NCBI GenBank assembly: GCA_030019445.1
Contig: JASEEU010000002.1
Coordinates: 62,995 to 126,994 of the forward strand
Reading direction: 5' to 3'
Length of the DNA stretch: 64,000 bases
Origin: Anaerosomatales bacterium
Lineage (GTDB): Bacteria > Actinomycetota > Coriobacteriia > Anaerosomatales > Anaerosomataceae
Below, one piece after another: positions 20,845 through 32,531 of the stretch (the stretch's first letter is position 1; each line of letters opens with the position of its first letter). The position numbers and the translations under genes were made by a program. The notes under the pieces were generated by a model that was given only the letters and a program-made list of their open reading frames with translations, did no database searches and had not been told where the DNA came from.

Positions 20845-21345
20845 CTGGGCACCGCACGCCGAGCTCTGATCCGCTGGGCGGTCTTGACCGCGATCTGGTG
20901 GGCGATATCGGAAGGCGATACCGCCGCGCTCGCGGTGGGCGCGCCTGCGGCTCTTGCCGCGGCACTGATATCGCTGGCGCTGCATCCGGATCCCCTGCCG
21001 GTCGTTCGTCCGCTGGGCCTTCTGCGATTCGCGGGCTTCTTCCTCGTGCATTCGGTCCGCGGCGGCATCGACGTCGCACTCCGCGCCCTCAAGCCGAGCA
21101 TGCCGATCGATCCGCGCATCATCACGTATGACCTGCGGCTTCCGGGCAACACGGCGCGCGTGGTGTTCACGAACACGCTGAGCCTGCTCCCCGGCACGCT
21201 GAGCGCGAAGCTCGGCCGGGACACCCTGGAGGTGCACGTCCTTGACTGCGCGGGCGAGGTGACCGCCGAGATCGCGCGCGTGGAAGACCGCGTCGCGGAC
21301 CTCTTCGGCGTGCGTCTCGCCCCGCACGCGGGAGGTGCCTGCTGA
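20845..21345 (+). CDS. MnhE/MbhA-type antiporter subunit, probable CTG start
   Basis: This is the first gene of the antiporter operon and encodes the Na+/H+ antiporter MnhE subunit (166 residues from the chosen start). Three membrane helices (RWAVLTAIWWAI, ALAVGAPAALAAALISLAL, LLRFAGFFLVHSVRGGIDVALRA) are followed by the typical soluble tail with LRLPGNTARVVFTNTLSLLPGTL. No ATG, GTG or TTG lies in frame near the expected N-terminus, whereas AGGAG at 20834-20838 sits six bases before CTG at 20845. An upstream in-frame ATG at 20731 would add 38 residues and has no good ribosome-binding site. Confidence 0.85.
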   Translation: MGTARRALIRWAVLTAIWWAISEGDTAALAVGAPAALAAALISLALHPDPLPVVRPLGLLRFAGFFLVHSVRGGIDVALRALKPSMPIDPRIITYDLRLPGNTARVVFTNTLSLLPGTLSAKLGRDTLEVHVLDCAGEVTAEIARVEDRVADLFGVRLAPHAGGAC

Positions 21346-21605
21346 TGGATCCGGTGCTCGGCGCGCTCGCCGCATTCATCATGGTGACGGCCTTTCTCGG
21401 CATCCTGCGCATCGAACGCGGTCCCTCGGGCGCCGATCGCATGCTCTCCGCGATGCTCTTCGGTACCACGGGCGTGGCGCTCGCGCTCGTCTTGGCCGAG
21501 GCGATCGGCAGTGCCGGAGCGCGCGATGCCGGTCTCGTGTTCGCGCTGCTTGGCGCCGTGACGGCGGTCGCCTTCGTGAAGCGCGCGTGGAGGGCGGGCG
21601 AGTGA
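21345..21605 (+). CDS. MnhF/MbhB-type antiporter subunit
   Basis: The 86-residue, three-helix membrane protein matches the MnhF subunit of multisubunit Na+/H+ antiporters; the conserved RIERGPSGADRMLSAMLFGTTGVA segment lies between helices 1 and 2. It begins in the stop codon of the E subunit (TGATG) and ends in the start of the G subunit, so stoichiometric coupled translation is expected. Confidence 0.88.
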   Translation: MDPVLGALAAFIMVTAFLGILRIERGPSGADRMLSAMLFGTTGVALALVLAEAIGSAGARDAGLVFALLGAVTAVAFVKRAWRAGE

Positions 21606-21928
21606 TGTCGACGCTCGACACGCTGACCGCCGGCATCGAGTACGCCCTGTACGCCGCGGGCGCCTTCTTCTTCCTCGCCGGCTCCGTGGGCCTCGTGCGC
21701 TTCCCCGACGTCTACACGCGGCTCCACGCGCTCACCAAGGCCGACAATCTCGGCCTTGGCCTCGTCTGCCTCGGCCTTGCGGTCCGCGCCGGATCGCCGG
21801 TGGTGGCGCTGAAGCTGCTGCTCATATGGCTGCTCGTGCTGGGCGCGGGTGCCACGGCGTGCTACCTGGTCGCCGAGGCTGCTCGCGCGGCCGAGGTCGC
21901 GCCGTGGACGCGGGGGGAGCGGCGGTGA
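21605..21928 (+). CDS. MnhG/MbhC-type antiporter subunit
   Basis: This 107-residue protein with three hydrophobic helices carries the MnhG signature FFFLAGSVGLVRFPDVYTRLHA followed by KADNLG. The subunit is structural in the Mrp/Mbh membrane arm. It overlaps both neighbours by one to four bases. Confidence 0.9.
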   Translation: MSTLDTLTAGIEYALYAAGAFFFLAGSVGLVRFPDVYTRLHALTKADNLGLGLVCLGLAVRAGSPVVALKLLLIWLLVLGAGATACYLVAEAARAAEVAPWTRGERR

Positions 21929-22206
21929 GCCTGCTCTTCGACATCCTGCTCATCGTGACGCTGCTCTGGATCGCCGTGGGGGCGCTCAGCGAGACGAAGC
22001 TCTTCAAGTCCGTGGTCATGTTCATCGTGTTCGGGCTGTTCCTCGCGATCGCGTGGGTCCGCCTCGGCGCACCCGACGTGGCATTGGCCGAGGCTGCCAT
22101 CGGGGCTGGCGTGACCGGGGCGCTGATGCTGGACGCGGTGGGGCACCTGCGGAAGCGGCCCACGCCGTACCCGACCGACCAGCGGGAGGAGGAGGCCGAT
22201 GCGTGA
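21925..22206 (+). CDS. MbhD-type subunit (MrpA C-terminal domain homologue)
   Basis: The 93-residue membrane protein corresponds to MbhD, which in Mrp antiporters is the penultimate part of the large MrpA subunit. The key segment is LGAPDVALAEAAIGAGVTGALML, the conserved PDVALAEA motif. It starts at GTG 21925 overlapping the G-subunit stop (GTGA). Separation from a MrpA core follows the Mbh rather than the Mrp gene plan. Confidence 0.82.
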   Translation: MSLLFDILLIVTLLWIAVGALSETKLFKSVVMFIVFGLFLAIAWVRLGAPDVALAEAAIGAGVTGALMLDAVGHLRKRPTPYPTDQREEEADA

Positions 22207-22891
22207 TCGCGAGCGCCTGCTCGCCCCGGTGCCCGTGCTCGTCGCGCTTGCGACGCTCGCGGTCGTGACGCGCGCCGTGCTCTCGCTGCCGCGATCGGCC
22301 GAGGGGCTGTACGGTCCGGTGGCCGAGGCAGCCGCCCGCGCGGGCATCTCCAACCGGGTGACCGCCGTTCTCCTGGACTTCCGCGGCTATGACACCCTCC
22401 TGGAGATCGCGGTGCTGATGCTCGCCACGGTCGCCGTGCTGTCGCTCCGAGAGGACCCCCGGCAACTCTACCGGCGCCTCTCGGAGCGTGCGACTCCGGT
22501 GCTGGCGGCGCTGACGCGCATCCTCGTGCCGCTCGCGTTCGTGGTCTCCGTCCACCTCGTATGGATCGGCTCATCGCAGCCGGGCGGCGCCTTCCAGGCG
22601 GCCGCCGTGCTCGGCGCCACCGGTATCCTGCTCTCGCTCTCCGGCTATGCGCGTCCGCAGTGGGTGGGCAGGACCGCCATGCGCTCCATCCTCGCCGTCG
22701 GGTTGCTGACGTTCATCGGCATCGCCGTGCTCGCCATGGTCGCGGGCGGGGCGTTGCTGGAGTATCCGGAGGGCACCCGCAAGACGCTCATGCTCGTCAT
22801 CGAGTCGCTGCTCACGTTGTCGATCGGTGCGAGCCTCGCGAGCCTCTTCCTGTCCTCGGCGTCCGGTGATTCGGAGCGTGACGGCCGATGA
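22199..22891 (+). CDS. Fused MbhE-MnhB/MbhF subunit
   Basis: The 230-residue protein joins two parts. Residues 1-100 resemble MbhE (VTAVLLDFRGYDTLLEIAVLMLA). Residues about 105-220 are a MnhB domain with VHLVWIGSSQPGGAFQAAAVLGATGILL, where the PGGAFQ motif marks the family. In Pyrococcus Mbh these are separate adjacent genes (mbhE, mbhF). Eight bases of overlap with the preceding gene and four with the next make it part of the same translational unit. Confidence 0.82.
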   Translation: MRDRERLLAPVPVLVALATLAVVTRAVLSLPRSAEGLYGPVAEAAARAGISNRVTAVLLDFRGYDTLLEIAVLMLATVAVLSLREDPRQLYRRLSERATPVLAALTRILVPLAFVVSVHLVWIGSSQPGGAFQAAAVLGATGILLSLSGYARPQWVGRTAMRSILAVGLLTFIGIAVLAMVAGGALLEYPEGTRKTLMLVIESLLTLSIGASLASLFLSSASGDSERDGR

Positions 22892-23202
22892 GCACGACGG
22901 TCCTCTACCCGCTGCTCGGCGCCGCGCTCTTCGCCCTGGGTGTCTGGGGACTGCTCGCGCGCAAGCACCTCATCCACAAGGTCATCGCCGCGAACTTCCT
23001 CGGCTCCGGGGTCTTCCTCGTCCTCATCGGCCTCGCCGGTCGGACCGCGGGGGCCGACCCGGACCCGGTGCCGCTGGCGATGGTCCTCACGGGCATCGTG
23101 GTGACGGTGGCGCTCACCGCGCTCGCCCTCGCGCTCATCAAGCGGTACTACTCGGCGACGGGCCTGGACACGCTCGAGCCTGCCGAGGAGGCCGAGCAGT
23201 GA
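22888..23202 (+). CDS. MnhC/MbhG-type antiporter subunit (NuoK-like)
   Basis: This three-helix, 104-residue protein is homologous to NuoK. The sequence KVIAANFLGSGVFLVLIGLAG and the late PLAMVLTGIVVTVALTALALALI are typical of MnhC. NuoK-like subunits carry membrane-buried acidic residues of the ion path. It overlaps the next gene by four bases (GTGA). Confidence 0.9.
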   Translation: MSTTVLYPLLGAALFALGVWGLLARKHLIHKVIAANFLGSGVFLVLIGLAGRTAGADPDPVPLAMVLTGIVVTVALTALALALIKRYYSATGLDTLEPAEEAEQ

Positions 23203-24695
23203 ACCTCGTAGCCCACCTTCCCGTGATCGTGATCATGATGCCGCTCATCGGCGCGAGCATCGCCTTCGTGGCCGGCCCCCGTCGCGCGCCGCTCGTGACG
23301 GTCGCCACCGCGGTGCTCACGATCGCGCCGGTCGCCTGGCTCGGCGCGCGGGTGTTGGCCGAGGGTCCGACACGCTACGAGATCGGCGGGTGGGGCGGGC
23401 CGCTCGGCATCGTGCTCGTGGCCGACGGCCTCTCGGCGGCCTTCCTCGGACTTGTCGCGATCGTCGGTCTTGGCGTCACGCTCTATGCGACCGGCTACTA
23501 CCGGGTGGCGACCGGGTCTCGGCCGGGACCCGGGCACGGGCTGTACTGGACGCTCTGGCTCTTCATGTGGTCCTCGCTCAACGCGCTGCTTCTCACCGGC
23601 GACGTCTTCAACGTGTACGTCTGCCTCGAGCTCGTGGGCCTCTCGGCTGTCGCGCTCGTCACGCTTGCCGAGGGCGCCGAACCGCTGCGCGCCGCGATGC
23701 GGTACCTCTTCGCGAGCATCCTCGGCGCGATGACGTACCTGCTGGGCGTTGCGCTCCTCTACGCGGCCACCGGCGTGCTCGACATGCGGATGCTCGCCGA
23801 CTCGCTCGGGCCATCGGTGGCCGCCGAGACGGGCCTCGCGCTCATGGTGGCGGCGCTGCTGCTCAAGACCGCGCTCGTCCCGATGCACTTCTGGCTGCCG
23901 ACGGCGCACGCCGCTGCCCCCTCGCCGGTGAGCGCCGCGCTCTCCGCGCTCGTGGTGAAGGGCTCGTTCTTCGTGACGCTGCGCCTGTTCCTCGATGTCA
24001 TGCCGGCGGGCTATCTCGGCGGCGCGGACGTGCTGATCGGCGTGCTCGGTGCCGTGGCCATCGTCTGGGGCTCCATCCAGGCGCTGCTGCAGGAGCGGAT
24101 CAAGCTGCTCGTGGCGTACTCCACGGTCGCGCAGGTAGGCTACCTCTTCCTCCTTTTCCCGCTGGCCCGCCACGGCGGTGAGGTGCTCTCGGCGGCGCTT
24201 CTCGGCGTCCTCGTGCACGCGCTTGCTCACGCGTTCGCGAAGTCGTCGATGTTCCTCGCGGCGGGCGTGACGCTCAAGCGCTTCGGGCACGACCGCATCG
24301 CCGACCTCCCGGGCACGGCACGCCGCGCGCCGGTCATCGCCGCCACGTTCGCGCTCGCCGGCGTCACGATGATGGGTCTGCCGCCCAGCGGCGGGTTCGG
24401 CGCCAAGTGGCTCATCGCGAGCGCAGCGCTCGCGTCGGGCGAGTGGTGGTGGGCCGCGGTCGTCCTCGTGGGCGGCCTGCTCGCCTCGGCATACATGTTC
24501 CGGCTCCTCGCGGTCTTCATGGCTGCTCCCGGCGGGCGACCGCTGCCGGTGGGCGGCGTGCGGACGCTTCGTACCGAGTGGGTACCGCTCGCGCTGGCGG
24601 CCGCCTCGTTCCTGCTCGTTCTGGCGGTCCCGCTCGTGACGCGCCTGGCCGAGGCGAGCGCGGTCGTGGCGCAGGCGGGGGGTGTCGTGCCGTGA
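23199..24695 (+). CDS. MnhD/MbhH-type antiporter subunit (NuoN/L-like), first of three
   Basis: The 498-residue protein with about 14 membrane helices is an ion-translocating antiporter-like subunit. The family landmarks are ELVGLSAVALVTLA (helix 5 region with its acidic residue), KTALVPMHFWLPTAHAAAPSPVSAALSALVVKGSFF (the lysine of helix 7 and the HAxAPSPVSALLS loop), and YSTVAQVGYLFL. The start is GTG 23199, four bases inside the C-subunit gene. Confidence 0.9.
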   Translation: MNLVAHLPVIVIMMPLIGASIAFVAGPRRAPLVTVATAVLTIAPVAWLGARVLAEGPTRYEIGGWGGPLGIVLVADGLSAAFLGLVAIVGLGVTLYATGYYRVATGSRPGPGHGLYWTLWLFMWSSLNALLLTGDVFNVYVCLELVGLSAVALVTLAEGAEPLRAAMRYLFASILGAMTYLLGVALLYAATGVLDMRMLADSLGPSVAAETGLALMVAALLLKTALVPMHFWLPTAHAAAPSPVSAALSALVVKGSFFVTLRLFLDVMPAGYLGGADVLIGVLGAVAIVWGSIQALLQERIKLLVAYSTVAQVGYLFLLFPLARHGGEVLSAALLGVLVHALAHAFAKSSMFLAAGVTLKRFGHDRIADLPGTARRAPVIAATFALAGVTMMGLPPSGGFGAKWLIASAALASGEWWWAAVVLVGGLLASAYMFRLLAVFMAAPGGRPLPVGGVRTLRTEWVPLALAAASFLLVLAVPLVTRLAEASAVVAQAGGVVP

Positions 24696-26164
24696 CGGTG
24701 TGGCTGCCCGTGCTTCTGCCCGTGCTCGTGGGCGTGACGACCTTCCTGCTCGGCGAGACGCGCGAGCGGCTCCGCGTGCTCGTCAACCTCGCCGGGGCCG
24801 TTCTGTCCTCGGGCGTCGTGATCGCGCTCGTCGTGCGAGCGTACGACGGGGCGGTGGCCGGAAGCTCGGTGGAGATGCTGCCGGGGCTCGCGCTCTCGCT
24901 CGAGGCTGACCTGCTCGGGCTGCTCTTCTCGGCGGTCGCGACCGTGCTCTGGGCGGTGACGCTCGTCTACGCGTTCGGCTACATGGCGCATGCCGAGAAC
25001 CGCGCGCGTTTCTTCGGCTTCTTCGCGCTGTGCATCGCTTCGGCCAACGGTGTGGCGCTCTCGGCGGATCTGCTCGGCCTGTTCGTCTTCTACGAGCTGC
25101 TGACGTTGGCGACGTACCCGCTCGTCGTGCACTCCGGCACCGACGAGGCGCTGGTCGCCGGGCGACGCTACCTCTACTACGCGCTCAGCGGCGGTGCCGC
25201 GCTGCTGCTGGGCGTGGTGTGGCTCTACGCGATCGCGGGAACGGTGCCGTTCACGCCCGGCGGCGCGCTCGGGGCGGTGGCCGGCCGAACCGGCGAGCTG
25301 CGTGCGATCTTTGCGCTGCTCGCAGGGGGATTCGGCGTGAAGGCCGCGCTGGTGGGTCTGCACCGCTGGCTGCCGGGGGCGATGGTGGCGCCCGCGCCGG
25401 TGAGCGCGCTGCTGCATGCGGTGGCCGTGGTCAAGGCGGGCGCGTTCGGCATGGTGCGCCTCGTGAACGAGGTCTACGGCCCCGAGCTCGCGACCTCGCT
25501 CGGGGTGGCGCAGCCGCTCGCCGCGATCGCGGCGATCACCATCCTCTTCGGCTCGATCGTGGCGCTGCGCCAGGACGACATCAAGCGGCGACTGGCGTAC
25601 TCGACCATCGCGCAGCTCTCCTACATCACGCTCGGCGTGGCGCTCTGCTCTCCGCTCGCCGCCGTCGGCGCGGTCGCGCATCTCGCTCACCACGCCGTCA
25701 TGAAGATCACGATGTTCTTCTCGGCGGGCAGTCTTGCCGAGACGCACCACATCAAGCGGCTGAGCGCTCTGGATGGCGTCGGCCACCTGATGCCGGCGAC
25801 GATGGCCTCGTTCGCGGCGGCTTCCTTCGGCCTTGCGGGTATCCCGCCGTTCGCGGGCTTCTTCAGCAAGTGGCCGCTCGGCGCGGGCGCCGCCGAGTCG
25901 GGCCAGGTGTGGGCGACGCTGCTGTTCGTGACGAGCGGGGCGCTCGCGGTCGGGTACCTCGCGCCGTTCCTGGTGCGCGCCGTTCGGCCCGCCGCCGCAG
26001 CGCGTGAGCCGGGCGCCGAGAGCGATCCGCGCATGCTGTGGCCCATCGTGATCGTCGGCGCGCTGTCGCTCGTCCTCGGCCTGCTCGCCGGCGTTCCCGG
26101 CAGCCCGCTCGACTGGGCCGCGCGCGCCGTCGCGCCCTCGTATGCGGGGTGGTCGCCGTGGTAG
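24692..26164 (+). CDS. Antiporter-like subunit (NuoL/N family), second of three
   Basis: This 490-residue polytopic protein has the proton/cation-translocating core: FYELLTLATYPLVVHSG, VKAALVGLHRWLPGAMVAPAPVSALLHAVAVVKAGAF and YSTIAQLSYITLG, then LAHHAVMKITMFFSAGS with the helix 12 lysine. It lacks the long MrpA C-terminus, whose parts are encoded separately upstream. The start is GTG 24692, overlapping the previous stop by four bases. It is more MnhD-like than MnhA-like. Confidence 0.87.
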   Translation: MTVWLPVLLPVLVGVTTFLLGETRERLRVLVNLAGAVLSSGVVIALVVRAYDGAVAGSSVEMLPGLALSLEADLLGLLFSAVATVLWAVTLVYAFGYMAHAENRARFFGFFALCIASANGVALSADLLGLFVFYELLTLATYPLVVHSGTDEALVAGRRYLYYALSGGAALLLGVVWLYAIAGTVPFTPGGALGAVAGRTGELRAIFALLAGGFGVKAALVGLHRWLPGAMVAPAPVSALLHAVAVVKAGAFGMVRLVNEVYGPELATSLGVAQPLAAIAAITILFGSIVALRQDDIKRRLAYSTIAQLSYITLGVALCSPLAAVGAVAHLAHHAVMKITMFFSAGSLAETHHIKRLSALDGVGHLMPATMASFAAASFGLAGIPPFAGFFSKWPLGAGAAESGQVWATLLFVTSGALAVGYLAPFLVRAVRPAAAAREPGAESDPRMLWPIVIVGALSLVLGLLAGVPGSPLDWAARAVAPSYAGWSPW

Positions 26165-27726
26165 ACGGGCTCGTGCGCGCCATCGGCTCGGGGGCGTTTC
26201 TCGCCGACGACCTCGCGGTGACCTTCGGTGTGCTCTTCTCGGCCATCTGGGGTATCTCCGCGCTCTACGCCCTGGTCACGGTGCCCAGCGACGAGCGGGG
26301 GCGGCTGTTCGCGTACTTCGTGCCGGCCGCTGTGGGGGGCATCGGCGTGGCGTTCGCCGCCGACGCGGTCTCGTTCTACCTCTGCTTCGCGCTCATGGCG
26401 CTGCCGTCGTGGGGGCTTGTCACGCACCCGCGTACGGCCGAGGCGCATCGGGCGGGGACGGCGTACCTGGGCGTCACGGTCCTCGGCGAGGCGCTGCTGC
26501 TGGCGGCGCTCATGCTGCTGGCTGCCGAGGCGAAGAGCATCCACCTCGCCGAGCTGCGTGGCGCGCTCGCCGCTGCCGAGCATGCCGGTGTCGCGTTCGC
26601 GCTCGTCGTTGCGGCGTTCGGGCTCAAGCTGGGCGCGATCGGCGCGAGCGGCGCCCTCCCGCTGACGTACGGGACCGCGCCCGCCGGGGCTGCGTCCGCG
26701 CTCGCGGGCGCGACGGTGAAGGTGGGCGTGCTCGGCCTGTTGCGCCTGCTGCCCCTCGGCGAGGTCGTGCCCGATGGCTGGGGAGCGGCGGTCATCGTGC
26801 TCGGCCTGCTGACGGCGTTCGGGGCGGCGGCCCTCGGCGTGCTCACCACGACTCCGAAGGCGGTGCTCGGCTACTCGAGCGCGAGCCAGATGGGGCTCGT
26901 GCTGATCGGCATCGGGGCGGGGCTCGCCGACCCTGCGGCGGGGTCGTGGGCGATCGCCGCGGCCGTCGCGTACTCCGTGCACCACGGGCTCGCGAAGGCG
27001 ACGCTCTTCCTCGGCGAGGATGTCGTACGGCATGCCACCGGCCACTTCCGGCGACTCGCCCTCGCGGCACTCGTGCTGCCGGCGCTGGCGCTCGTGGGCG
27101 CTCCGCTCACGAGCGGTTTCGTCGCCAAGTACGCGCTCAAGCACGCCGTGCACGATGCCGCCGGTGCGCTGCCGCACCTCGCCGGGACGCTGCTGTCGTG
27201 GGCGGCGGTGGGCACCGCGCTGCTGATGCTTCGCTTCTTCGTGCTGCTGATGCAGGAGCCGGTCGATCAGGGGGCGGGCACCGTGGGAGGAGCGGCCGCG
27301 CCGCGGCGTGCTGCCGCGGTGCTCTGGGCGTCCATGCTCGCGCTCGTCGCCGGCGCGGCGTGGCTCTGGCCGGCCGGGTGGGCGGCTGACGCGGCGCACT
27401 CCGCGTTCGATCCGACCTCGCTGTTCGCGGCCACCTGGCCGGGGCTCGTGGCGCTGGCTGCGGCGCTGCTCGCGCGGCGGCTCGCCCGCGGCGCTGTACG
27501 TCTGCGAGAGGGCATCGTGCCGCCGGGAGACCTCGTTGCGGGTGCGACCCGGGTCGTCTCGGCATGGCTCGCGCCGGTACCGGCGCCGGTGATCGCCGGC
27601 GGTCGTACGCGGGCCACCGGGCTGCCTCGCATGCTGCTCGAAGCAGAGGGCTTCTGGACGGTCTGGGCGGTCGCGGCTGGCGTCTTCGTGGTCGTGGCGG
27701 TCGTGCTCGTGCTCGTCGCGGCGTAG
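26158..27726 (+). CDS. Antiporter-like subunit (NuoL/N family), third and divergent
   Basis: The 522-residue membrane protein keeps the overall NuoL/N plan but is the most diverged of the three. The helix 7 region reads FGLKLGAIGASGALPLTYGTAPAGAASALAGATVKVG, in place of a charged lysine-proline-HAxAPSPVS loop, and SYSSASQMGLVLIGIG is followed by YSVHHGLAKATLFLGEDV. Loss of canonical loop residues suggests a structural or altered translocating role. GTG 26158 is chosen (26149 is an in-frame alternative) and overlaps the previous gene by seven bases. It ends the operon; zwf-gnd starts 78 bases on. Confidence 0.75.
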   Translation: MVDGLVRAIGSGAFLADDLAVTFGVLFSAIWGISALYALVTVPSDERGRLFAYFVPAAVGGIGVAFAADAVSFYLCFALMALPSWGLVTHPRTAEAHRAGTAYLGVTVLGEALLLAALMLLAAEAKSIHLAELRGALAAAEHAGVAFALVVAAFGLKLGAIGASGALPLTYGTAPAGAASALAGATVKVGVLGLLRLLPLGEVVPDGWGAAVIVLGLLTAFGAAALGVLTTTPKAVLGYSSASQMGLVLIGIGAGLADPAAGSWAIAAAVAYSVHHGLAKATLFLGEDVVRHATGHFRRLALAALVLPALALVGAPLTSGFVAKYALKHAVHDAAGALPHLAGTLLSWAAVGTALLMLRFFVLLMQEPVDQGAGTVGGAAAPRRAAAVLWASMLALVAGAAWLWPAGWAADAAHSAFDPTSLFAATWPGLVALAAALLARRLARGAVRLREGIVPPGDLVAGATRVVSAWLAPVPAPVIAGGRTRATGLPRMLLEAEGFWTVWAVAAGVFVVVAVVLVLVAA

Positions 27727-27804
27727 CGTATGCGGCGTACGCTCTGACACGCCCGCGGCGTTCGGGAACACACTCCGTGTGACGCTCGCGCTGAAAGGAC
27801 CGAG

Positions 27805-30159
27805 ATGATCCCGACCACGCCCACCACGCTCGTCGTGTTCGGCACCACCGGCGACCTCATGGCACGCAAGATCGTGCCGTCGCTCGCGTACCTCTACGTC
27901 AACGAGCGCCTGCCCGACCGCCTTCGCGTCGTGGGATGGGGCCGCCGCGGCTGGGACGACGCGCAGCTCCGCGACCACGTGCGGGGGATCCTCGAGCCCT
28001 ACGACGGCGTCAAGCCGGAGGGGGAGGAGCTCGAGCGCTTCCTGGACCTGTTCACGTACCATGACGGCACGTTCACCGACGACGGCGCGTACGTCGCGCT
28101 GCGCGAGCGGATCCGCGGCTTCGCGGACGAGTGGGGACAGTGCGCGAACACGCTGTTCTACCTGGCGGTGCCGCCCGAGAACTACCGGGCGATCTTCGAG
28201 CGGCTCGCCGACTCGGGGCTGACCACGCCCTGCAGCGAGAGCGAGGGCTACACGCGCGTGCTCGTGGAGAAGCCCTTCGGCAGCGACCTTGAGAGCGCGC
28301 GGGAGCTCGACGATCTTCTCGGCAGCCTGTTCGCCGAGGAGCAGGTGTACCGCATCGACCACTACCTCGCCAAGGAGATGCTGCAGCAGGTCCTCGCATT
28401 CCGCTTCGTCAACCAGCTCTTCGAGCCGTCGTGGGACGCGCGACAGGTCGAGCGGATCGACATCTCGCTGCTGGAGACCATCGGCGTGGAGAAGCGCGGG
28501 GCGTTCTACGACGGCGTGGGCGCGCTGCGCGACGTGGGTCAGAACCACCTCCTGCAGATGCTCGCCCTCGTCGCCATGGACCGCCCTGCCGAGATGACCG
28601 CCGACGCGATCAGGGCCGAGCGTGCGCGGTTTCTCGGCACGCTCGTGCCGCCGTCGCCGGACGACATCGCGGCGGGCAGCTTCCGTGCGCAGTACGAGGG
28701 CTATCGCGACATCCGCGGCGTCGCGCCGGACTCCGGGACCGAGACGTACTTCCGCCTGCGGTTCACGCTAGCCGGAGGCCGGTGGGCGGGCGTCCCGGTC
28801 ACCATGGAGTCGGGCAAGCGGTTCGCCGAGCCGCGCAAGGAGATCGCGGTCACGTTCCGCCACCCGGACCCGTGTCTGTGCGACGGAGCCGGACCGGGGC
28901 GCTACGAGAACGTGGTCACCTTCAGGATGGAGCCCGAGGAGTCGATCCGGCTGCAGTTCTGGGCGAAGAAGCCCGGCTTCGACGACGTCTTGGAGCCGCG
29001 CGAGTTCACGTTCTTCCTGTACGAGACCGACGAGAAGGTCCAGTACGTCGAGGAGTACGCGACGCTCCTGCTCGATGCCATCGAGGGGGACCAGACGCTG
29101 TTCGTCAGCACCGACGAGGTGCAGGCGATGTGGGCGTTCATCGACCCGTTCCTCGAAGTGTGGGACGCCGGCGCCGTCCCGCTCGACACGTATGCGCCGG
29201 ACACCGCCGACGTGCTCGACCGGGCACGGGACCGCGTCGACCTCGGCATGCGGATGCCTCCGGAGATCGGCGTCGCCGGTCTTGGCAAGATGGGCGCCGC
29301 GCTCGCGCGCAACCTGCTCGAGCACGGCTGGCGCGTGGTCGGCTACAACCGCACGCATTCAGTCGCTGAGGGGATGGCGTCCGAGGGCCTGGAGCCGACC
29401 GCGAGCCTTGCGGAGCTGGCCGAGAAGCTCGCGCCGCCCCGCTGCGTCTGGGTGATGGTGCCCGCCGGCGCCGCCACCGAGGCCATGCTCTTCGGCGAGG
29501 GCGGCCTGGCCGAGGTGCTGGAGCCCGGGGACATCGTGATCGACGGCGGGAACTCCTTCTACGAGGACTCGCGGGAGCGTGCGACACGTCTGGCCGAGCG
29601 GGGCATCCGCTTCATGGACGCGGGCACGTCCGGCGGTCCGGGCGGCGCCCGCCACGGCGCCTGCCTGATGGTGGGCGGCCGTCGCGAGGACTTCGACGCC
29701 CTCGGCAGGCTGTGGAGCGACATCAGTGTGCGCGACGGCTTCCGGTTCTTCGAGGGCCACGGTGCGGGCCACTTCGTGAAGATGGTGCACAACGGCATCG
29801 AGTACGGCATGATGCAGGCGCTCGCCGAGGGCTTCTCGGTCATGAAGGCGTCCGACTACGAGCTCGATCTCACGGCAGCCGCGGAGGTCTACAACCGGGG
29901 GAGCGTGATCGAATCGCGCCTCGTCGGCTGGCTGGCCGAGGCGTTCGAGGTCTTTGGCGAGGACCTCGAGCCGGTATCGCCGACCGTGGCGCACACGGGC
30001 GAGGGCGAGTGGACCGTTCAGACCGCCGAGAAGCTCGGCGTCTCCGCGAGGATCATCGAGGGCGCGCTGCGGTTCCGAACAGAGTCCGAGCGCGATCCCA
30101 GCTACGCGGGACGGGTCCTCTCGGCGCTGCGCAACCGTTTCGGCGGCCACGCCGTCTAG
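27805..30159 (+). CDS. Fused glucose-6-phosphate dehydrogenase/6-phosphogluconate dehydrogenase
   Basis: One 784-residue frame joins two oxidative pentose phosphate enzymes. Residues 1-475 are G6PDH: coenzyme loop FGTTGDL (12-18), EKPFGSDL near 155, active-site RIDHYLAKE (183-191, with Ala where Gly is usual) and the C-terminal EWGQ/FVSTDEV region. Residues 486-784 are a short-class 6PGDH: GLGKMG (492-497), GYNRTHS suggesting NADP, DGGNSFYEDS, the substrate motif TSGGPGGARHG, and catalytic Lys659/Asn663 in HFVKMVHNG. The roughly ten-residue linker contains Met482 and Met484 but no ribosome-binding site lies before them, so a single polypeptide is expected. No 6-phosphogluconolactonase domain or gene is present here. 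AAAGGA precedes the ATG. Confidence 0.93.
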   Translation: MIPTTPTTLVVFGTTGDLMARKIVPSLAYLYVNERLPDRLRVVGWGRRGWDDAQLRDHVRGILEPYDGVKPEGEELERFLDLFTYHDGTFTDDGAYVALRERIRGFADEWGQCANTLFYLAVPPENYRAIFERLADSGLTTPCSESEGYTRVLVEKPFGSDLESARELDDLLGSLFAEEQVYRIDHYLAKEMLQQVLAFRFVNQLFEPSWDARQVERIDISLLETIGVEKRGAFYDGVGALRDVGQNHLLQMLALVAMDRPAEMTADAIRAERARFLGTLVPPSPDDIAAGSFRAQYEGYRDIRGVAPDSGTETYFRLRFTLAGGRWAGVPVTMESGKRFAEPRKEIAVTFRHPDPCLCDGAGPGRYENVVTFRMEPEESIRLQFWAKKPGFDDVLEPREFTFFLYETDEKVQYVEEYATLLLDAIEGDQTLFVSTDEVQAMWAFIDPFLEVWDAGAVPLDTYAPDTADVLDRARDRVDLGMRMPPEIGVAGLGKMGAALARNLLEHGWRVVGYNRTHSVAEGMASEGLEPTASLAELAEKLAPPRCVWVMVPAGAATEAMLFGEGGLAEVLEPGDIVIDGGNSFYEDSRERATRLAERGIRFMDAGTSGGPGGARHGACLMVGGRREDFDALGRLWSDISVRDGFRFFEGHGAGHFVKMVHNGIEYGMMQALAEGFSVMKASDYELDLTAAAEVYNRGSVIESRLVGWLAEAFEVFGEDLEPVSPTVAHTGEGEWTVQTAEKLGVSARIIEGALRFRTESERDPSYAGRVLSALRNRFGGHAV

Positions 30160-30827: not shown

Positions 30828-32531
30828 CTACTTCCTGATGTCGTCGAAGTGCTCGTCCCAGCGGCCGCCGCCACCCGCCGCGAAGACGTCATAGGGTGGG
30901 ATCTCGTAGACCCGCAGCCGGTCATCGAGGAAGTCGCTCATCACGAGCATGGTGCCATCGTCCGAGAGGTCGAGCGCGGTCGGCTGGTTGCCGCACACGA
31001 CGGCGTCGAGCGGTGCGCCGCTCTTCGCGTCGAGCACGACGATCGTCCCCCACTCGGGACCTGGGATGTAGTAGGTCGTGGGGTTGTTCTCGCCGCGGCA
31101 ACTGACGAAGAGCATCGTGCCGTCGGGCGAGAGGTCGATCGTGTTGGGCTTCTCGTCCACATCGGCGAGCTTCGTGGTCGTGCCGGTCTTCATGTCGTGC
31201 ACGTATATGCAGTCATCGGCCATGTCCGAGATGTACAGGCGACCCGCGCTCTCGTCGGCCACGATGTGGCGAAGCGCCCCGCCATCCTTGAAGACGGCGG
31301 TCACCTCGCCGCTGGCAAGGTCCACTTTGTCGAGCCAGCCGCTGTCGAAGCCGGCGACGTAGAGCGTGAGGCCGTCGGCCGTGGGCCAGAGCCCGCGCGG
31401 CGTCTTGGAGACGGGGATGCGCCTCCTGAGCTCGCCGGTCGCGAGGTCGATCTCCGAGACGTCGTTGCCCGACCAGTTGGCGGCGTAGAGCGTGCCTCCG
31501 TCGGGCGAGAGCGCGACCACCTTGGTCCACGCGCTCTCGGTGTCGAACTCCCGCAGCACCGTGCGCGTCGCCACGTCGATCTCAAAGACCTTCGCGGTCT
31601 CCATCTGGCTCGCGTACGCCTTGGTGCCATCCGCCGAGAAGATCACCTCCACCGCCCCGTGCTCGCCGAGGTCCATCTCGCCGACCTTCTTGCCGGTGAG
31701 CGGGTCGAATATCTCGATCGACGGCGGACCGTTCAGGATGGTCGCCCACGCCTCCGACTTGTCGGGGGTGATGGCGACGGCCTTGGGAGCCCCGCTCGTG
31801 GAGAACATGCCGAGCGCGTGCACGATCTGCCCGTCGGGGTCGAGCCACAGGTCGAGCGCGAACGGCTCGTCCAAGAAGAGCTCGCGCGTGAAGGTGTTGT
31901 AGCCGTCGCGGGAGAGGCTCACCGTCACCGGTCCGGCGGGCACTTCCGCCGAGAACGGCGCCGCCCCCTCGAACGTCTGGCCGTCGGCGCACGTGACCGT
32001 GCACGTCGCGCCCTCGGGGTGGCTTGCGAGCGTGACCTCGAACGGCAGCGGCTCGAGGTCGTAGGCGAGGCGCGGATGCTTGCCGCGTTCGAGCTCGACG
32101 GACGTCTCGACCGGCTCGAAGCCCTTGCGCTCGACCCTGATGGGATACGTGCCGGGCTCGAGATCCGAAGCTTCAAGGGTGCCGGCCGCAGTCGTGCCGT
32201 TGAAGGCGATCACCGCGTCGGCGGGGGTCACGGTGATGCTCACCGCCGCGGGTCGCGTCAGCAGCCAGAAGCCGACGCCGCCGGCGACGACTGCGAGCAC
32301 CAGCAGCACGGCGATCGGCGCGAGCAGGTTGCGTCGCACCGGTCGACGTCCCACCGGCCGGCCGGAGCCGATGACCTCTCCGCGCCTGCGCGCCGCGCGC
32401 GTGGGCGTGCGCCCTCGTGGCGGCGTGGCGCCGGCGCGGGGCGGGGCGCTGCGGATGACCGGCGGCGTGCCGCCACGCCGCTTCCGGCCTCGGTGGTGGC
32501 GATCGCTTCGTCGGGGGCGGTACTCGGACAT
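30828..32531 (-). CDS. PEGA-domain, YVTN-type beta-propeller membrane protein
   Basis: The 567-residue protein has a basic cytoplasmic N-terminus (1-68, very Arg/Pro-rich), one membrane helix (about 69-91, LLAPIAVLLVLAVVAGGVGFWLL), and a PEGA domain near 95-215 (SITVTPADAVIAFNG, EPGTYPIRVERKGFEP). From about 230 to 555 there are repeated YVTN/cytochrome-D1-like blades such as AITPDKSEAWATI, LSPDGGTLYAANWSGNDV, LSPDGTMLFVSCRGEN and LSDDGTMLVMSDF. Such proteins are surface or periplasmic scaffolds; ligand unknown. A hairpin follows its stop codon. Confidence 0.78.
   Translation of the reverse strand: MSEYRPRRSDRHHRGRKRRGGTPPVIRSAPPRAGATPPRGRTPTRAARRRGEVIGSGRPVGRRPVRRNLLAPIAVLLVLAVVAGGVGFWLLTRPAAVSITVTPADAVIAFNGTTAAGTLEASDLEPGTYPIRVERKGFEPVETSVELERGKHPRLAYDLEPLPFEVTLASHPEGATCTVTCADGQTFEGAAPFSAEVPAGPVTVSLSRDGYNTFTRELFLDEPFALDLWLDPDGQIVHALGMFSTSGAPKAVAITPDKSEAWATILNGPPSIEIFDPLTGKKVGEMDLGEHGAVEVIFSADGTKAYASQMETAKVFEIDVATRTVLREFDTESAWTKVVALSPDGGTLYAANWSGNDVSEIDLATGELRRRIPVSKTPRGLWPTADGLTLYVAGFDSGWLDKVDLASGEVTAVFKDGGALRHIVADESAGRLYISDMADDCIYVHDMKTGTTTKLADVDEKPNTIDLSPDGTMLFVSCRGENNPTTYYIPGPEWGTIVVLDAKSGAPLDAVVCGNQPTALDLSDDGTMLVMSDFLDDRLRVYEIPPYDVFAAGGGGRWDEHFDDIRK

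Follow-up and report, generated by a model that had tools for sequence, protein, structure and literature searches.

A single-chain fusion of glucose-6-phosphate dehydrogenase and 6-phosphogluconate dehydrogenase in Anaerosomatales and Patescibacteria

Here we describe a gene of a subsurface-type Anaerosomatales bacterium in which glucose-6-phosphate dehydrogenase (G6PDH, zwf) and 6-phosphogluconate dehydrogenase (6PGDH, gnd) are encoded as one polypeptide. The window, by which we mean the whole 64,000-nucleotide stretch of DNA that was analysed (GC content 68.8%), carries a single stop-free frame of 784 aa (87.0 kDa) with both domains complete (Table 1), and this is a genuine bacterial G6PDH-6PGDH fusion that had apparently not been described before. 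Judged from its sequence, the protein is very probably a bifunctional, NADP-dependent enzyme of the oxidative pentose phosphate pathway, since both domains score above curated cutoffs and have invariant catalytic residues, the frame is kept at full length across the order with both domains under constraint and a confident fold, and the genome has transketolase and ribulose-phosphate epimerase, which could take the product further.

Table 1. Features of the fused gene and its neighbours, in window coordinates
Feature	Coordinates	Strand	Evidence or content
Mrp/Mnh-type Na+/H+ antiporter operon	21335-27726	+	MnhG, MnhB/MbhE, three Proton_antipo_M subunits
Leader, AAAGGA Shine-Dalgarno-like, ahead of ATG	27790-27804	+	Direct reading of sequence
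Fused zwf-gnd gene, 784 aa	27805-30159	+	Stop-free translation; full length in 50/69 order genomes
G6PDH domain, aa 6-467	27820-29205	+	PF00479 + PF02781, TIGR00871; active-site residues invariant in 43 fusions
Variable linker of about 20 aa, partly helical by prediction (helix 469-483)	29206-29262	+	43-fusion alignment, AlphaFold model, codon divergence
Short-class 6PGDH domain (about 300 aa), aa 487-784	29263-30156	+	PF03446 + PF00393, NF007161, TIGR00872; invariant catalytic residues
PEGA/beta-propeller protein, convergent to fusion	30828-32531	-	Weak generic PF10282 match

Reading frame, domains and active sites

The frame opens with an ATG preceded by AAAGGA and closes with TAG, both read directly from the sequence, and it is the sole copy of the fusion within its own genome (2.09 Mb, 97.6% complete); a consensus scan found no promoter or terminator for it. 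The sequence-only reading, which had proposed a single-chain G6PDH-6PGDH fusion with a short linker and no internal ribosome-binding site, holds on each of these points, and the motifs that it quoted (FGTTGDL, RIDHYLAKE, GLGKMG, TSGGPGG and HFVKMVHNG) are all present in the translation. In-frame ATG or GTG codons do occur by the domain junction, at 29212, 29248 and 29254, and no Shine-Dalgarno-like sequence was found upstream of them. Just 12 of 43 fusions have a methionine close to the 6PGDH boundary, and its position differs among them, so that no start codon is conserved there; with neither a ribosome-binding site nor a conserved methionine, an internal start yielding a separate 6PGDH is rejected.

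Pfam places G6PD_N at residues 10-194, G6PD_C at 197-467, NAD_binding_2 at 487-638 and 6PGD at 655-763. The zwf model TIGR00871 scores 430.3 bits over residues 6-464, against a curated cutoff of 400.6, and the 6PGDH domain exceeds the cutoffs of both NF007161 (336.4 vs 271 bits) and TIGR00872 (310.3 vs 297.2). It does not have the long C-terminal half, which places it in the short class. The Pfam search gave no 6-phosphogluconolactonase (6PGL) domain (PF01182) within the protein, which is therefore not of the G6PD::6PGL type.

Active-site and cofactor residues were counted in an alignment of 43 non-redundant fusions, using catalytic equivalents taken from the literature on L. mesenteroides G6PDH and ovine 6PGDH. 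The G6PDH residues D185, H186, Y187, K190, H248 (presumably the equivalent of the catalytic H240 of the L. mesenteroides enzyme) and K338 are invariant, as are N583, S609-G610-G611, K659, H662, N663, E666, Y667 and R758 of 6PGDH; the KMVHNGIEY and SGG motifs and the N102-equivalent likewise do not vary, save for V or I at position 661. At the cofactor loop, G6PDH has W-G-R-R and 6PGDH has G-Y-N-R-T. An NADP-type arginine stands at position 47 of G6PDH in 42 of the 43 proteins, and in 6PGDH the NADP-type Asn515 and Arg516 are found in 37 and 34, the window protein having NRT. In aligned structures the 6PGDH loop reads Y-D-H-D in PDB 8ihe, which is named as an NAD+-dependent 6PGDH, and D-L-N in PDB 4e21. 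By model name the 6PGDH cofactor would be NAD+ according to TIGR00872 and NADP+ according to NF007161, and the NRT signature favours NADP+. Because loops of the W-G-R-R and NRT types dominate, and 8ihe reads differently, NADP+ is likely to be the cofactor of both domains. Both domains appear to be active and NADP-type, as had been suggested earlier.

Codon positions 1 and 2 are constrained to about the same degree in both domains, with the linker more divergent, and this constraint together with the invariant active sites rules out a pseudogene or a decayed domain. The AlphaFold model (pLDDT 87.8, pTM 0.73) is confident in both domains. The best Foldseek matches of this model are all G6PDH structures. 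In a separate comparison of the protein with solved structures, none of the 60 chains listed matched both halves.

Distribution and evolutionary history

No stop or frameshift, which the sequence-only reading had named as evidence against a fusion, separates the domains. Within Anaerosomatales the gene is full length and stop-free in 50 of 69 searched genomes (counted by eye), at 58-71% identity, which rules out misassembly, a frameshift artefact or chance; two of the 50 carry a second copy. Other partial matches in the order mostly run to contig ends, as verified for G029. Several genomes that are 98-100% complete have no fusion gene or a mere trace of one (e.g. G003 and G014), and the gene is therefore dispensable. 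No comparable match was found in the genomes searched from other orders of the class.

A wider search covered one genome from each species, together with sampled genomes of Patescibacteria (380) and Actinomycetota (296). It used patterns built from the window protein, which could miss remote fusions, and its finds are thus a lower bound. Single-frame fusions were present in 13 of the 380 sampled Patescibacteria, which have small genomes (a count that takes in the sample's centre) and in at least two further actinobacterial lineages, so that the proposed search of actinobacterial genomes for the domain pair yielded it both within and beyond the order. Among the matches listed, fusions also occur in Wolfebacteria, Magasanikbacteria, Doudnabacteria and Parcubacteria metagenome-assembled genomes. 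Many other Patescibacteria encode close homologues as separate adjoining frames in the order zwf-gnd, and matches in Chloroflexota, Proteobacteria and Chlorobiota have the reverse order, gnd-zwf. One Parcubacteria genome (L031/G105) contains both a fused zwf-gnd gene and a separate zwf-gnd pair (C4:68496-70802, C20:7970-10364). A phage or plasmid fusion was considered and rejected: the best matches listed fall below 40% identity, lie in two pieces and are mostly annotated as adjacent separate genes.

Maximum-likelihood trees were built separately for the two domains. The fusions of the order form one clade in each (support 100/98 for G6PDH and 99/94 for 6PGDH), and in both trees this clade sits amid patescibacterial fusions and split zwf-gnd operons. 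A constraint that unites all fusions in a single clade is rejected by the AU test in either tree (p-AU 5e-11 and 3e-6), which means that there were at least two fusion events, or that fused and split states interchanged. When L115-118 and L121, a subset chosen after seeing the tree, are left out of the G6PDH data, a single origin is not rejected (p 0.073). The two trees disagree in some details, and therefore some domain exchange or fission happened. The nearest relatives of two patescibacterial fusions, L027 and L031, differ between the trees, suggesting domain replacement during or after fusion.

Because split zwf-gnd operons adjoin the fusions in the trees, we favour an origin by operon fusion, in which the stop between zwf and gnd would have been lost at least twice. 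The version found in the order would represent one old clade, akin to patescibacterial fusions. This kinship implies lateral transfer between the groups, and transfer between Patescibacteria and Anaerosomatales is the simplest reading of the trees.

The missing lactonase, the neighbourhood and the value of linkage

In the scheme that we propose for the bifunctional enzyme, the N-terminal domain would convert glucose-6-phosphate and NADP+ to 6-phosphogluconolactone, and the lactone would open spontaneously or by way of some unlinked lactonase. A single gene product would then deliver two NADPH and pentose phosphate, at an enzyme ratio fixed at 1:1. Transketolase and ribulose-phosphate epimerase are encoded in the same genome. 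The first Anaerosomatales (OPB41) isolates are reported to lack sugar transporters, glucokinase and phosphofructokinase, and what they do have was termed an 'incomplete pentose phosphate pathway' (PMC9686372). If the present genome resembles theirs, the fusion would draw on gluconeogenic glucose-6-phosphate for NADPH and pentose, and this is the role that we envisage for it.

In genomes with the fusion, the step between the two fused ones usually has no recognisable gene. The earlier suggestion that no lactonase is linked to the fusion extends to the whole genome, where PF01182 has no match. Nor does it match in 62 of the 69 order genomes, the remaining seven having weak matches only, four of them above the cutoff, or in 19 of 20 other fused genomes. 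The search was widened to PF10282, which gave the weak, generic match to the convergent downstream PEGA/beta-propeller protein; on these grounds we do not accept that protein as a hidden 6PGL. Two patescibacterial genomes without a fusion have a PF01182 gene directly beside zwf or gnd, in a zwf-gnd-pgl cluster (L170, G428:C2:193094-196120) and a zwf-pgl cluster (L169, G396:C11:40526-42576), and a lactonase can therefore belong to the operon.

These absences bear on whether the linkage itself matters. An enzyme that offsets the missing lactonase by channelling, its coupling or domain surface speeding lactone opening or passing 6-phosphogluconate to the second site, would fit both the widespread absence of PF01182 from fused genomes and the fact that the missing step is precisely the one between the two that are fused. 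We nevertheless consider such an enzyme unlikely: the fusion has no extra domain, the lactone hydrolyses spontaneously, and 8 of 10 unfused patescibacterial genomes are likewise without PF01182, so that genomes with fusions are not alone in having lost 6PGL. It is similarly doubtful that the fusion evolved specifically in response to 6PGL loss, arising repeatedly in patescibacterial zwf-gnd operons and being exchanged with deep-branching Coriobacteriia-like actinobacteria. Even chances can be given to a neutral origin, in which the stop was lost without functional gain and the enzymes act as if separate, in fixed ratio and with no channelling. That reading is compatible with the bifunctional enzyme and differs from it on whether linkage matters. 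Tandem separate frames in neighbouring lineages, the variable linker and the interleaving of fused and split states in the trees all speak for it, whereas the survival of the unbroken fusion through the deep divergence of the order, and its having been gained more than once, suggest a benefit without proving one.

A third proposal came from the neighbourhood. The fusion starts 78 bp past the last gene of the antiporter operon, on the same strand, and from this adjacency the sequence-only reading had drawn a hint of redox/ion coupling. The comparison with relatives does not bear this out: none of 23 loci with flanking DNA has an Mrp gene near the fusion, and in 17 of them serS, which in the window precedes the antiporter operon, lies upstream within about 10 kb. 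A redox module tied functionally to the antiporter is thus highly improbable, and the operon was probably inserted locally, separating serS from the fusion. Downstream of the fusion, PEGA/propeller and LDcluster4 genes are often conserved among the same 23 loci.

Relation to known systems

The sequence-only reading knew of no described fusion of these two enzymes. For bacteria this stands, as we found no description in the open-access literature, and the present account appears to be the first to lay one out, although sequence data contain many more bacterial copies. For eukaryotes it does not: the diatom Phaeodactylum tricornutum provides a published G6PDH/6PGDH fusion (protein ID 54663; PMC2173943, PMC3148214), and in 2011 no other was found in nr (PMC3148214). 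On a broader level, a fusion common to an actinobacterial order and Patescibacteria gives a natural setting in which to test whether the joining of steps 1 and 3 offsets a missing lactonase, may serve as a marker of gene exchange between the two groups, and could be used in enzyme work as an NADPH module encoded by one gene.

The diatom protein resembles the bacterial one in joining the same two enzymes in one frame across a short spacer. It is eukaryotic and described from a single species, a later genome annotation split its gene model, and its genome also encodes separate 6PGDHs and a 6PGL, whereas the bacterial fusion has no further copy in the genome studied here, is of the short 6PGDH class and is order-wide. 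The G6PD::6PGL fusions of Giardia, Trichomonas, Plasmodium and animals (H6PD) are likewise multi-enzyme proteins of the oxidative pentose phosphate pathway, but they join steps 1 and 2 rather than steps 1 and 3. Closest in domain sequence and presumed activities are the separate Zwf (TIGR00871) and short-class Gnd (NF007161/TIGR00872) proteins, which have the same two domains on two polypeptides.
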